DNA from: Billgrantia bachuensis
GTDB lineage: Bacteria > Pseudomonadota > Gammaproteobacteria > Pseudomonadales > Halomonadaceae
DNA: 64,000 nucleotides
Reading direction: 5' to 3'
NCBI RefSeq assembly: GCF_011742165.1
Contig: NZ_JAAQTO010000003.1
Coordinates: 1 to 64,000 of the forward strand
Of the stretch, positions 15,900 to 36,435 are shown piece after piece. Numbering within the stretch: position 1 is the stretch's first letter; every line of letters starts with the position of its first letter. A program made the position numbers and the translations under genes. The notes under the pieces are model-generated. The model worked only from the letters and a program-made list of their open reading frames with translations, searched no databases and had not been told where the DNA came from.

Positions 15900-16619
15900 A
15901 TGAGCGCAACCCTCCACCACAACGTCGACCAGGGTGAGATCGCCAAGTTCGAGGCCCTGGCCAGCCGCTGGTGGGACCCGCACAGCGAATTCAAGCCGCT
16001 GCATGACATCAACCCGCTGCGCCTCGACTTCATCGATGCCCGCTGTGGACTGGCCGGCCGCAGGGTGCTCGACGTCGGGTGTGGCGGTGGCATCCTGGCC
16101 GAGGCCATGGCGCATCGCGGCGCCCGGGTCACCGGCATCGACATGGGCGAGGCACCGCTCGGTGTTGCGCGCCTGCATGCCCTGGAGAGCGGGGTGGAAG
16201 TGGAGTATCGCCAGGCCAGCGCCGAGGCCTTGGCCGTCGAGCAGCCCGGCGAGTACGATGTGGTGACCTGCCTCGAGATGCTCGAGCACGTACCCGATCC
16301 CGGCTCGGTCATCCAGGCCTGCGCCACGCTGGTCAAGCCGGGGGGGCACCTGTTCTTCTCGACCATCAACCGCAACCCCAAGGCCTATGCCCTGGCCATC
16401 GTCGGTGCCGAATACCTGCTGCGGATGCTGCCCCGCGGCACCCACGAGTTCCGCAAGTTCATCCGCCCCGCCGAACTGGCCGGCTGGTGTCGCGAACATG
16501 GGCTCTCCGTGCGCGAGCAGAGCGGCTTGGTCTACAACCCGCTGACGCGCCGCTATCGACTCTCGACGCGAGACGTCTCGGTCAACTATCTGATGCATTG
16601 CCGCCGAGAGACGGAGTGA
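15900..16619 (+). CDS. ubiG: Ubiquinone biosynthesis O-methyltransferase
   Basis: SAM-dependent enzyme carrying out both O-methylations of ubiquinone synthesis. It has 239 residues with start ATG at 15900 ([20 protein letters not shown]); the frame is open upstream but starts with the divergent promoter. It shows the family N-terminal block [22 protein letters not shown] motif [16 protein letters not shown] near residue 62 and the LEHVPDP motif. The 3' end overlaps mupP by 1 bp (TGATG), so the two are co-translated. The order ubiG-mupP-yciK matches Pseudomonas, though yciK is inverted here. Confidence 0.95.
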
Positions 16620-17278
16620 TGACTCAACCCCAAGCACTACTGTTCGATCTCGACGGCACGCTGGTCGACACCGCGCCGGACCTGGCGCGGGCGACCAATG
16701 CCTTGCGCGCCTACCATGGGCTCGAACCGCTCCCCTACTCGATGATCCGCGCGCAAGTCTCGAACGGCGGCAGCGCCCTGGTCGCCCTGGCGCTGGGGAT
16801 CGATCAAGCGCACCAGGACCATGACGAGGCGCGCCAGTATCTGCTCGATGCCTATGGTAAGGCGCTGGCCGTGGAGAGCTGCCTGTTCCCTCATCTCGAT
16901 CGTCTGCTGGGCAGTTGGGAAGCCAGGGACCGTCCTTGGGGAATCGTCACCAACAAGCCACGCGCCTATGCGGCACCTCTTGTCGAAGCGCTCGGGCTGA
17001 CCCCGGGAGCGTTGTTGTGCGCCGACGACCTGCCGCAGCGCAAACCGGCGCCGGAGCCGCTATGGGCCGCCGCCGAGCAATTGGCTGTACTGCCCGCGCA
17101 GTGCTGGTACATCGGCGATCATCTGCGCGACATGCAGGCGGCCCGTGCCGCCGGCATGATCGCCGTGGCCGTCGGCTACGGCTATATCGAGGAAGGCGAA
17201 GACTACCGGGAGTGGCCGGCCGACCTCTGGTTCGAGACCTGCGAAGCGCTGGTGGAAGCACTGCTGCAGCCCGCCTAA
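16619..17278 (+). CDS. mupP: N-acetylmuramic acid 6-phosphate phosphatase (HAD family)
   Basis: A 219-residue HAD phosphatase with motif I LLFDLDGTLVDT (Asp nucleophile near residue 10), a helical cap, motif II IVTNK, motif III Lys in LPQRKPAPEP and motif IV IGDHLRDMQAARAAG. By sequence alone it could be called phosphoglycolate phosphatase (gph). The position directly after ubiG and next to yciK is that of MupP in Pseudomonas, which acts in peptidoglycan recycling, so I favour mupP. The start overlaps the ubiG stop. Transcription would run into the structured intergenic element that follows. Confidence 0.8.
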   Translation: MTQPQALLFDLDGTLVDTAPDLARATNALRAYHGLEPLPYSMIRAQVSNGGSALVALALGIDQAHQDHDEARQYLLDAYGKALAVESCLFPHLDRLLGSWEARDRPWGIVTNKPRAYAAPLVEALGLTPGALLCADDLPQRKPAPEPLWAAAEQLAVLPAQCWYIGDHLRDMQAARAAGMIAVAVGYGYIEEGEDYREWPADLWFETCEALVEALLQPA

Positions 17279-17333
17279 GCCGACTCAGGCAGGCTGAAGC
17301 AAACCAGACCAACAGCCAAGCTAGCGCAAATTG

Positions 17334-17557
17334 GCGAGCGGGATGAAGCGCCAGGCGCCCGGAGCACAGCAATCCGAGCGTATGGGGTTATACGTGAGGA
17401 ATGCGAGCATTCGGGCACCAATTCGCCGGGAGCGAATTGGAACAGCCGAAGGCTGGCCCGAAGGGTAGCCGCAGGGATGGCGGCTATAGCACAGCGATTC
17501 GTCGGGGACGCCTAGTTCGCGCAGCCATTTGTTATTTAGGCTGGGCGTCGAATCGCT
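17334..17557 (+). repeat. Structured intergenic element, copy A: chain of perfect hairpins between mupP and yciK
   Basis: A run of separate perfect inverted repeats: CGTAT/ATACG (17379-17383 with 17390-17394), GAATGC/GCATTC (17399-17412), CCAATTCGC/GCGAATTGG (17418-17426 with 17432-17440), CAGCC/GGCTG (17443-17455), TAGCCGC/GCGGCTA (17466-17472 with 17480-17486). A final compound hairpin has AGCGATTCG and ACGCC (17493-17501, 17508-17512) pairing with 17544-17557, and CAGCC/GGCTG (17522-17526 with 17539-17543) inside. The last arm lies in the 3' end of yciK, whose stop codon falls in the terminal loop. The segment 17334-17408 shares order and spacing with copy B at 35299-35371. Probably a dispersed structured repeat or RNA element; a terminator role for the convergent pair is possible. 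Confidence 0.7.
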
Positions 17558-18287
17558 CGCCGTTCCGCCCCCTGCTATCAGGTCCCATCAGCCACAGGTA
17601 GGTGGGCATGATCTCTTCCGACGTGCGCAGGGTGTTCGGATCTTCCCCCGGATAGGCGTTGACGCGCATCGCCGTACGTGTCGCCCCGGGGTTGAGCGAG
17701 TTGACGCGCAGCGTGCCCAGGTGCTCGACCTCGTCGGCCAGGACTTCCATGAAGCCCTCGGTGGCGAACTTGGACACGGCATAGGCGCCCCAGAACGCGC
17801 GCCCCTTGCGCCCGACGCTGGATGAGGTGAAAACGATCGACGCATCGGGCGAAGCCTGCAAAAGCGGCAGCAGAGCCTGCGTCATCCAGATCGGCCCGTT
17901 GATGTTGACCTGCATCACCTGATCCCACAACTCCGGGTTGTACTGCTCGAAAGGCGTGATGCGCCCCAACAACCCGGCGTTATGCAGAACTCCATCGAGA
18001 CGACCGAACTCCCTGTCCAGGGTCTCGGCCATGTCGTGGTAATCCTTGTGCGTAGCGCCTTCGAAATTGAGCGGAAAAATGGCCGGTTGCGGTCCACCGG
18101 CAGCCTCGATCTCGTCATAGACCTTTTCCAGCTTGGTGATCGTGCGGCCCAGCAGAATCACCGTGGCGCCATGGCGAGCAAAGGCCAGGGCGGCCGCACG
18201 GCCGATGCCATCACCGGCCCCCGTCACGAGGACGATGCGATCGGAAAGCAGATCGGCGGGCGCCACGTAGTCGATCTTGCAGGTCAT
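17532..18287 (-). CDS. yciK: YciK-type short-chain dehydrogenase
   Basis: A 251-residue Rossmann-fold oxidoreductase. It has the cofactor loop VTGAGDGIGRAAALAFARHG, an NAG-type motif HNAGLLG, catalytic Ser in FTSSSVGRKG and YxxxK in YAVSKFA. The tail NGERFDAQPK ends in the FDAQP motif seen in E. coli YciK. The physiological substrate of the family is not established. The last codons form one arm of the hairpin element described at 17334-17557, which is odd for coding sequence. It lies downstream of cpoB on the same strand with a 27-bp gap, so it may be the last gene of the Tol-Pal transcript. Confidence 0.88.
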   Translation of the reverse strand: MTCKIDYVAPADLLSDRIVLVTGAGDGIGRAAALAFARHGATVILLGRTITKLEKVYDEIEAAGGPQPAIFPLNFEGATHKDYHDMAETLDREFGRLDGVLHNAGLLGRITPFEQYNPELWDQVMQVNINGPIWMTQALLPLLQASPDASIVFTSSSVGRKGRAFWGAYAVSKFATEGFMEVLADEVEHLGTLRVNSLNPGATRTAMRVNAYPGEDPNTLRTSEEIMPTYLWLMGPDSRGRNGERFDAQPK

Positions 18288-34027: not shown

Positions 34028-34166
34028 GACACCTCCTCCATGGCAAGTTGCCTCCATTTTCAGCATACCCAATCGCAGTGCTTCTGTCGGCCAGCGGCTT
34101 GCATTGCAGCCCTGAACCGACCACGCCCATAATAGGCCCCCCGAGCCACCAGCGAAGGATGTGCCG

Positions 34167-35243
34167 ATGAGCGATACCGATCATGATTTCGACTGTCTCG
34201 TATTCATCGGTCGTTTCCAGCCCCCGCACCTGGGGCACTTGGCTGTAATCAACGAGGCCCTGCGCCATGCGCGTCAGGTAATCGTGCTGGTGGGCTCGGC
34301 CTGGCAGGCGCGCTCGCTGCGTAATCCGTGGCGTTTCGATGAGCGCCAGGAACTGCTGCGCAGTTGCTTCGATGAGGAGGAGAACGCGCGGCTGGAGATC
34401 GTGCCGCTACTGGATGCGCTCTACAACGACGACGTCTGGGTACGTGACGTGCAGCGCAAGGTGCGGCAGATCGCCGGGCATCACCACGCCCGGCTACCAC
34501 GCATCGGCCTGATCGGAGCCAGCCGCGGCCAGTCGAGCTACTACCTGTCGCTGTTTCCTCAATGGGAGTCCGTCAGCGTGCCGCTGGTCGACGGCATTTC
34601 GGCTAGCCAGATCCGCGAGCGGCTGTTTCGCTCCCCCTCCTCCACCGAGGATTACCTCAGTACCGGGGCAACCCACGACTTGCCCCCCGGCGTGTGCGAG
34701 GCGCTGCGTCGCTTCGCCGGCAGCGATGCCCACCAGCAACTGATGGAGGAGCAGAAGCTGCTCGAGCAGTATCGCCAGGCCTGGGTCAACGCGCCCTACC
34801 CGCCTATCTTCGTCACCGTCAACGCCGTGGTGGTGCAATCCGGCCACGTGCTGTTGGTACGCCGCACCGCAGCTCCCGGCAAGGGCCTGCTGGCACTGCC
34901 CGGCGGCTTCATCAACCCCCACGAGCGTCTGCTCGACGCCTGCTTGCGCGAATTGCGTGAACGGGTGCGGCTCAAGGTACCGGAACCGGTGCTGAAGGGC
35001 TCGCTGCGTGGCCAGCGACTATTCGACGAGCCCCACCGCAGCTGGCGCGGCCGCACCCTCGCGGAAGCCTTCTACTTCGCCCTGCGACCCGACCAGCAAC
35101 TCCCCCAGCTCAAGCCCGTCAAGGGCGGCGATCATGCACGCTGGGTACCGCTGGCCGAACTCGAACCGGACAGCCTGTTCGAGGACCACTTCTTCATCAT
35201 CCAGAATTTTCTCGGCCTGCCGGCCGATTTCGGCGGGATCTGA
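34167..35243 (+). CDS. Bifunctional nicotinamide-mononucleotide adenylyltransferase / Nudix hydrolase
   Basis: A 358-residue fusion. The N-terminal domain (about 1-180) is a NadM-type NMN adenylyltransferase with [20 protein letters not shown] and [10 protein letters not shown]. The C-terminal domain (about 205-345) is Nudix, likely acting on ADP-ribose or related NAD metabolites. The Nudix box [20 protein letters not shown] departs from consensus: the second Glu of the EE pair and the following Gly are Arg. The start is ATG 34167, 7 nt after GAAGGA; a GTG at 34161 also fits the frame. It ends at the structured element, copy B. Confidence 0.9.
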
Positions 35244-35298
35244 TATCCAAGCCAGGGATCGATAAAACTTTTGTTTGGAAAAGAACGGGATTTCCGTC

Positions 35299-35427
35299 GC
35301 GAGCGAAGGCAGGCCGGTCACCGCCGGAGCGGAGCTACCGGAGTGTAGTGGCCTACATGAGGATAGCGACGAACCGCCGGGGGCCGGCCTGTCGAGCGCA
35401 GCAGGAAAGCCATACTTTTTCAGGCTT
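35299..35427 (+). repeat. Structured intergenic element, copy B, between the NadM-Nudix gene and a LysR gene
   Basis: The order is GCGAGCG (35299-35305), 19 nt, CGGAGC (35325-35330), GGAGCTACCGGAG, hairpin TGTAG-TGGC-CTACA (35344-35357), TGAGGA (35358-35363), then GCGACG. Copy A at 17334-17408 has the same blocks with the same 19-nt spacing and a hairpin of different sequence. Further inverted repeats are CAGGCCGG/CCGGCCTG (35310-35317 with 35384-35391), CGTCGC/GCGACG (35295-35300 with 35366-35371) and AAGCC/GGCTT (35407-35411 with 35423-35427). The first two cross, so they would be alternatives or a pseudoknot. There is no coding potential. Confidence 0.65.
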
Positions 35428-36337
35428 GGAGGAAGTCGCGCGGTAACTTCATCATCTGCCGCCACAGCTTCTCGACGCCCGGCTTGTGCACCAGCGAGCA
35501 GCGATAGAGACGGATCTCCAGCGGCACATCCCACTTCTCGCCGCCGGCTCGCACCAGCCTGCCGCTCTTGAGCTCTTCACGCACGCAGAAATCGGGAATC
35601 CAGGCCAGTCCGACTCCTTGCAGCACCATGCCCTTGAGCCCTTCGGCCATGGCGGTTTCATAGACGGTGCGCAAGCGCAACCGCAGCGGGTCGTTCTTGA
35701 GCAGCATGCGTACGCTGCGCCCGAGAAAGGCGCCCTGGGTATAGGACAGGTAGGGTATGGTGTCCTTGCTCTCGAGGCTGAAGCGCGGCTTGCCCTTGGG
35801 GTCGGGAAGGCTGACCGGCAGCATCTTGACCTGGCCGATGGAGAACGAGGGAAACACTTCGGCGTCCAACTGCATGGTGGCGTACGGGTCGTGGTAGGCC
35901 AGCATCAAGTCACAGTTGCCCTCGCGCAGCACGTGGATCGCCTCACCCACGTTCATGGCCACCAGGCGCGTCGGCAGCTCGCCCAACCCTTCCTGAAGCC
36001 GCGAGATCCACTCGGGGTAGAAGCTCAGCGCCAGAGAATGGGCGGCAACGATGTCCAGCGCCTCACGTGCCATGGACACGCCGCGCAGGTGGCCCAGACA
36101 CTCGTTGAGCTGCTCCACCAGATTACGCGCCGTGATCAGAAAGAGCTGCCCTTCGGGCGTGAGATTGATCGGTGTCGTGGAACGATCGACGAGGGTCACT
36201 CCCACCGCTTGTTCGAGCGCCCGAATACGACGACTGAAGGCGGGCTGGGTGACATGACGCTGCCGGGCGGAGGCAGAGAAGCTGCGGGTATTGGCCAGGG
36301 CCACGAAATCTTCCAGCCACTTTGTCTCGAGGTTCAC
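35420..36337 (-). CDS. LysR-family transcriptional regulator, HypT-like
   Basis: A 305-residue LysR protein. The start is GTG 36337 (MNLETKWLEDFVALANT) behind GGGAG. The DNA-binding domain contains HVTQPAFSRRIRALEQAVG, nearly identical in style to E. coli HypT, followed by VAAHSLALSFYPEWI, also HypT-like. The C-terminal AWIPDFCVREEL matches the other paralogue at 2401-3309. HypT uses methionine oxidation to sense HOCl; conservation of those methionines here is not checked. It is convergent with the NadM-Nudix gene across element copy B, and 77 bp downstream of nothing on its own strand but next to cls. Confidence 0.88.
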   Translation of the reverse strand: MNLETKWLEDFVALANTRSFSASARQRHVTQPAFSRRIRALEQAVGVTLVDRSTTPINLTPEGQLFLITARNLVEQLNECLGHLRGVSMAREALDIVAAHSLALSFYPEWISRLQEGLGELPTRLVAMNVGEAIHVLREGNCDLMLAYHDPYATMQLDAEVFPSFSIGQVKMLPVSLPDPKGKPRFSLESKDTIPYLSYTQGAFLGRSVRMLLKNDPLRLRLRTVYETAMAEGLKGMVLQGVGLAWIPDFCVREELKSGRLVRAGGEKWDVPLEIRLYRCSLVHKPGVEKLWRQMMKLPRDFLQA

Positions 36338-36435
36338 CGGGACTCCCGCTGACAGCAATAGAGCGAATAAAAAAGCGTTCTTTGGCGTTGCCTAATTTAC
36401 CCCAGCTGCCCGTCGAACCCAAGTGACTTCGCCGC

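Follow-up and report, generated by a model that had tools for sequence, protein, structure and literature searches.

Two intergenic sequences of Billgrantia bachuensis, copies A and B, raise the question of what kind of genetic element keeps a hairpin paired while the sequence of its stem changes. Both lie in the window analysed here, which is the whole stretch of 64,000 nt at the start of contig NZ_JAAQTO010000003.1. A preliminary description, made from the sequence of this window, had regarded them as members of a structured intergenic family that matches no feature type known by name. Their building blocks were located as described. In copy A, GCGAGCG (17334–17340) and CGGAGC (17360–17365) are 19 nt apart, and the stem CGTAT (17379–17383)/ATACG (17390–17394) is followed by TGAGGA (17395–17400); copy B has GCGAGCG (35299–35305) and CGGAGC (35325–35330), again 19 nt apart, the stem TGTAG (35344–35348)/CTACA (35353–35357) and TGAGGA (35358–35363). 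The likeness of the two copies is above chance: a relaxed pattern of the ordered blocks, composed after both copies had been seen, occurs twice in the window and in none of 300 dinucleotide shuffles. For wider searches two covariance models were used, R1 from six type-B copies with copy A excluded and R2 from the related type C. Both elements exceed the 75 nt originally named, and the outer end of copy A on the 3′ side is degenerate. The features at the two sites are as follows (plus-strand elements are given in the orientation of the preliminary description).

16079 to 17278, plus strand: open reading frame upstream of copy A; its C-terminal part is an HAD-type phosphatase and its start position is provisional.
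About 17321 to 17539, plus strand: copy A, a type-A element; R1 match at 17323–17444; loci L295 and L314 carry a full type-A element at this gene end.
17321 to 17324 (CTAG) and 17536 to 17539 (TTAG): possible remains of a target duplication at copy A.
17379 to 17394, plus strand: apical hairpin of copy A (CGTAT/ATACG).
17416 to 17489, plus strand: a stretch of about 74 nt inserted into copy A, which L295 and L314 lack; delimited by eye by comparing L288, the own locus, with these two.
17532 to 17534, minus strand: stop codon TAA of a YciK-family oxidoreductase gene (17532–18287), inside the 3′ edge of copy A.
34161 to 35243, plus strand: NMN adenylyltransferase/Nudix gene (NF003786, 562 bits), the convergent neighbour of copy B.
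35283 to 35416, plus strand: copy B, a type-B element (R1 125.1 bits, B itself being among the six building sequences of R1).
35344 to 35357, plus strand: apical hairpin of copy B (TGTAG/CTACA).
35420 to 35422, minus strand: stop codon TGA of a LysR-family regulator gene (35420–36358), just outside the 3′ edge of copy B.

The existence of a structured intergenic family, as had been claimed from the two copies, was borne out over dozens of copies. In the same genome, R1 gave 30 matches at 26 places at E values up to 1, which excludes that the family consists of these two loci; 25 of the places, copy A included, have E 6e-4 or less. Relatives of A and B were also recovered there by DNA and pattern searches. 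R1 recognized copy A with 28.8 bits (E 4.6e-4 at genome scale) and type-A copies elsewhere at E values down to 2.4e-11, while R2 found at least 11 places in this genome, at least seven of which were new relative to R1. Among 38 related genomes, the own genome counted, R1 matches are present in at least 26, comprising at least 24 of the 25 genomes of the genus and at least two of the 13 others of the order. In the whole class, R2 matched at least 93 of 274 genomes (own included) in at least 81 of 222 genera, with at most 11 scored per genome and stricter filters. R2 also matched all 14 named genomes, which had been picked for a pattern match, and the matches listed at E up to 1e-5 range from 3 in Vreelandella neptunia to 72 in P. 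oryzihabitans. Scanning the genome collection with a pattern yielded 77 stretches from Halomonas, Billgrantia, Salinicola, Kushneria, Modicisalibacter, Chromohalobacter, Vreelandella, Litchfieldella, Pseudomonas, Marinobacterium and Rudaea; one of the 77, in a Ktedonobacterales bin, is probably a chance match. A type-C query matched 25 of 72,556 plasmid records, 23 of these from Pseudomonas, and no annotated feature lies under the match in the best 20 of the 25 according to a gene table that is itself incomplete. A type-B query gave no match in the plasmid collection, and one type-C query gave none in phage records. The simple core motif is absent from 6 of the 15 distant-copy loci examined. 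Two distant copies from other families of the class (L386 and L389) keep the GGAG...TGAG core, the paired ends and a TTAG on either side and are without the outer GCGAGCGA motif.

The element is a single long hairpin of 135–160 nt. From the outside inward it consists of an outer stem, an internal loop (GCGAGCGA.. / ..CGAGCGCAG), a second stem, a short stem that varies by copy (GCAA/TTGC, GGAA/TTCC, AAAA/TTTT or GCTA/TAGC), a further internal loop (CCGGAG/TGAGGA) and the apical hairpin. Conservation of the unpaired internal loops extends to all three types, A, B and C. For the analysis of covariation, type-B copies more than 93% alike were merged, leaving 69, of which 28 with long inserts (copies of >150 nt, many of them with an extra small stem-loop by eye) were removed, and the remaining 41 were aligned with MAFFT without the use of structure. 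The compensatory change noticed between the apical stems of A and B was found in every stem: double changes occur in 35 of 46 pairs compared with 22 (sd 2) in shuffles, and in 244 cells compared with 67 (sd 7). Pairing holds in 95% of the cells, in 82% after shuffling and in 30–44% when the partners are slid by 1–3 columns, the last comparison being favourable to the real pairing because the structure was predicted from the same alignment. None of 500 shuffles equalled any of the observed values. In folding calculations, each strand of two copies gave a better fold than shuffled sequences (z from −3.1 to −5.5), and the RNA of copy B reaches −69.5 kcal/mol (z −5.5). Selection on structure, which had been suggested earlier, is well supported. 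An RNA, a single-stranded DNA and a template-switch correction of inverted repeats are all compatible with the data; the last could yield the covariation, yet it leaves the conserved unpaired loops unexplained. The wobble counts (GT:AC 43:21, 4:2 and 15:8) lean slightly to the strand opposite the gene, an asymmetry too small to indicate which strand is functional.

Conservation ends sharply about 18 nt beyond the conserved anchors of the element. When exact flank duplications were sought at fixed offsets, none was convincing, and a test for the consensus YTAR took the place of this search. It was applied to 124 elements, which are regular-expression matches from retrieved loci, most of them of Halomonadaceae, and belong to type B and in some cases to type C. 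YTAR lies no more than 1 nt from the expected edge in 24 of the 124 copies on the 5′ side and in 45 on the 3′ side, against a background of 0.27% and 0.13% per flank position, respectively; 15 copies have it near both edges. The type-C set comprises 59 of the 77 stretches, from which L158 was dropped as a likely chance match. Among the 52 with anchor and flanks, the offset of YTAR is exactly the same in 26 copies on one side and in 27 on the other, and 29 copies have YTAR near both edges. Transposases of the DDE_Tnp_1 type occur in at least 63 of 90 genomes of the genus. The window's own genome (80 contigs) gave no match to DDE_Tnp_1, therefore no partner is present there now. Among 30 transposase loci, L322, L323, L324 and L328 have the transposase gene enclosed by facing repeats of the GGAARCRCTG kind that are flush with YTAR, and with more mismatches such repeats are also found in L326. 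Repeats of the GYTYTGTACGAAAAGTC kind bound the gene in L338, L339, L340, L344 and L346, with YTAR flush on at least one side. Shuffled end patterns gave 0.0 occurrences on average at the same 30 loci. The transposase of L323 is NF033581, whereas the two open reading frames of L346 match NF033580 with DUF4096 and DDE_Tnp_1, and these are two IS5 subgroups. Types A and B bear ends of the GGAARCRCTG kind and many type-C copies bear ends of the GYTYTGTACGAAAAGTC kind; thus one core is joined to ends from at least two IS5 subgroups. For a further type-C end, GAGGGTGTTTACAAA, and a third tested end, AGGGTGTTTACAAA, no partner was found among the 30 transposase loci. The loci L341 and L347, which bear insertion sequences, have paired ends CAGTCTGTCGGGTTTTCG beside CTAG, possibly another family with such a target.

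The history of the two sites was followed through orthologous loci. The LysR gene end, where copy B resides, carries type B, pieces of B, type A or nothing in 61 genomes of the genus. The automatic classes are 5 B, 5 B fragment, 5 A and 46 none, with the gene end misplaced in L379; inspection by eye assigns L260 to type A, with an insert, and reveals additional remnants in L287, L355, L357 and L361, so that the number of 46 for "none" is too high. LysR proteins 96–99% identical to the query were found with all three site states. At the empty sites L259, L264, L271, L273 and L274 the convergent stop codons have one YTAR in common, and this single YTAR is, in our reading, what an insertion would duplicate. 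The LysR protein ends with RDFLQA in 45 of 61 loci whether or not the element is present, and the LysR stop was therefore not made by insertion there. At the site of copy A, a full type-A element is present in 3 of 30 loci (L288, which is the own locus and has the insert, L295 and L314), and a short remnant in several. Type-B copies of one genome are at most 92% identical and have unrelated flanks, and they are still paired; the observed insertions are thus not recent.

The preliminary description had placed both copies between convergent genes. This holds for copies A and B, but not as a family rule: of 122 copies (the 124 minus two without a gene on one side; gene predictions from a codon-usage script), 77 lie between tandem, 41 between convergent and 4 between divergent genes. 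The rule is instead a stop codon at the 3′ edge, in one orientation. With abutting defined as a stop no deeper than 14 nt inside the edge and no farther than 3 nt outside it, the 3′ edge abuts the stop codon of an opposite-strand gene in 101 of the 122 copies and the 5′ edge in 6; 78 of the 101 stops are 1–3 nt inside the 3′ edge. Because orthologous insertions are counted several times in these numbers, we recounted by distinct site, defined as clusters by shared 9-mers in the flanks, and obtained 71 of 87 at the 3′ edge and 5 of 87 at the 5′ edge. For type C, the same limits gave 24 and 4, respectively, of the 42 copies with genes on both sides. The abutting stops are TGA in 47 cases, TAG in 32 and TAA in 22, and the stops of all predicted genes longer than 450 nt are TGA in 234, TAG in 61 and TAA in 51.

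Inverted terminal repeats as in the IS5 elements of the genus, YTAR target sites at the edges, a length too short for a transposase and presence/absence at the orthologous LysR site together characterize a miniature inverted-repeat transposable element (MITE) of the IS5 type, and the statement that no known feature type applies is thereby superseded. We consider it probable that the copies are IS5-type MITEs mobilized in trans whose hairpin, placed after a stop codon, protects or defines the 3′ end of the mRNA and is kept by survival. An IS5-family transposase acting in trans would insert the element at YTAR and duplicate this site. Copies would persist best behind a stop codon in one orientation, where the element would be transcribed as part of the mRNA of the abutting gene and would form a stable hairpin directly after the stop that could protect or define the mRNA end. 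With such a putative role, the hairpin structure would be kept after the insertion ages. The 47 TGA among the 101 abutting stops count against this explanation, as they are not directly supplied by YTAR, and the wobble lean counts slightly against an RNA of the gene strand. Further points against it are the lack of a DDE_Tnp_1 match in the own genome, the negative search for exact flank duplications and the small number of copies, 15 of 124, with YTAR near both edges. MITEs are usually viewed as decaying scraps of transposons; here a precise hairpin with invariant loops is kept through compensatory changes. If the 3′-end role is true, a mobile family has furnished mRNA ends across much of the class.

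The strongest competitor, to which we give a chance of somewhat over one third, is a MITE without any function, which pairs through template-switch correction, survives at gene ends where it does no harm, and finds its YTAR in TAA and TAG stops. It accounts for the YTAR ends and for ordinary decay, visible as fragments and empty sites at the LysR gene end, and agrees with the high share of TAA or TAG among abutting stops (54 of 101 vs. 112 of 346 in predicted genes >450 nt). However, in the 96-kb contig of the window only 8 of 93 YTAR sites are at stops, while 40 are coding, 44 are intergenic away from stops and one is straddling. From this distribution, target choice combined with loss of coding insertions predicts about 15% of the copies at stops, in either orientation, against the 71 of 87 occupied sites in one orientation. 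Moreover, the conservation of unpaired loops in types A, B and C finds no explanation in a correction of stems.

A further reading takes the core as a portable structured module, folding as RNA or single-stranded DNA, that resides within several IS5-subgroup transposons across Gammaproteobacteria and, placed or retained behind stops, acts as a mobile 3′-UTR. We regard this as possible but rather unlikely; the invariant internal loops would perhaps be recognized by a protein or by the terminating ribosome. Clearly less likely is a trans-acting or cis-regulatory RNA family with a function of its own, for which transposon spread would be secondary. The covariation, the conserved loops and a weak match to the Rfam family sX9 agree with such an RNA, but the turnover between close species speaks against an essential regulator, and an Rfam search of the window gave no family at threshold. 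At 15 loci, where a known RNA family was likewise sought, matches were sub-threshold only.

Stable long hairpins at the ends of genes also recall bidirectional intrinsic transcription terminators dispersed between gene ends, an identity that we hold to be improbable. Of 124 copies, 29 have a run of at least 4 T at one end of the element and 28 at the other, compared with 14 of 248 flank controls, but runs of at least 5 T are found in only 3 and 9, and the 77 tandem settings do not fit a bidirectional terminator. A terminator scan of copies A and B themselves revealed no site with hairpin and T-run at either. A REP/BIME-type repeat moved by a REP-associated tyrosine transposase (RAYT) can be practically dismissed: many-copy intergenic palindromes with a GGAG next to the apical hairpin resemble REPs, and tetranucleotides such as GGAG are linked to RAYT, but YTAR-flush ends and IS5 terminal repeats were found instead. 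A search for the RAYT domain Y1_Tnp gave 0 matches in the own genome, with 5 of 14 control genomes positive.

By target and IS family, the nearest described element is MITEPsy1 of Pseudomonas syringae pv. phaseolicola, which we compared via its published ends and the available part of its description. MITEPsy1 is a non-autonomous element of 100 nt, assigned as "IS5?", whose insertion into CTAG or YTAA duplicates 4 nt and for which transposition in vivo was reported (PMC3189936). The YTAR sites of the present family agree with this CTAG/YTAA target, whereas the terminal repeats of MITEPsy1, GGAAGGTCTGAAAAAGCC, differ from the ends of types A, B and C, and the available part of the description mentions no stop-codon rule (PMC3189936). 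A query built from the published MITEPsy1 ends had no match in the plasmid collection. A sequence of pRSB105 with MITEPsy1 ends and CTAA/TTAG flanks is without the structured core. In P. fluorescens, dispersed intergenic repeat families, some proposed to be MITEs, are described, in the part of the report available, as enriched between convergent genes; these R families may include a relative of our Pseudomonas copies, namely R178 with 101 bp, which is present in all three strains and is likened here by description (PMC2718517). ERIC, NEMIS, Correia and QMITE elements are mobile intergenic palindromes that fold into hairpins, several being cotranscribed with the neighbouring gene (PMC1590033, PMC10969869). 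Compared by description, they are alike in mobility and hairpin folding, but the available parts of these descriptions report neither a stop-codon placement nor a core common to two IS5 end types (PMC1590033, PMC10969869). In the main texts of the open-access papers searched, no description of the present family was found by sequence words or by topic.

In a type-A element, the half on the gene strand aligns with all 76 positions of sX9 (RF02228), a small RNA of Xanthomonas. The scores of 30.6 bits for type A (L074, 2852–2926, minus strand) and 26.4 bits for a type-B half (L054, 1558–1628, plus strand) are below the family threshold of 44. The alignment on the gene strand is a hint that would fit a transcribed half-element, although it is sub-threshold, and half an element may have been domesticated as the sX9 small RNA. 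At the LysR gene end of L276, a different palindrome (GAACCTGTCGGATTTGAC ... GTCAAATCCGACAGG) with TAG/CTAG flanks directly follows the LysR stop codon and is perhaps a third mobile element at this stop. Internal inserts are present in the type-A copies of the window (17416–17489), L260, L268 and L004; those of copy A, L260 and L268 are alike by eye, have a similar position and perhaps represent a smaller nested repeat.
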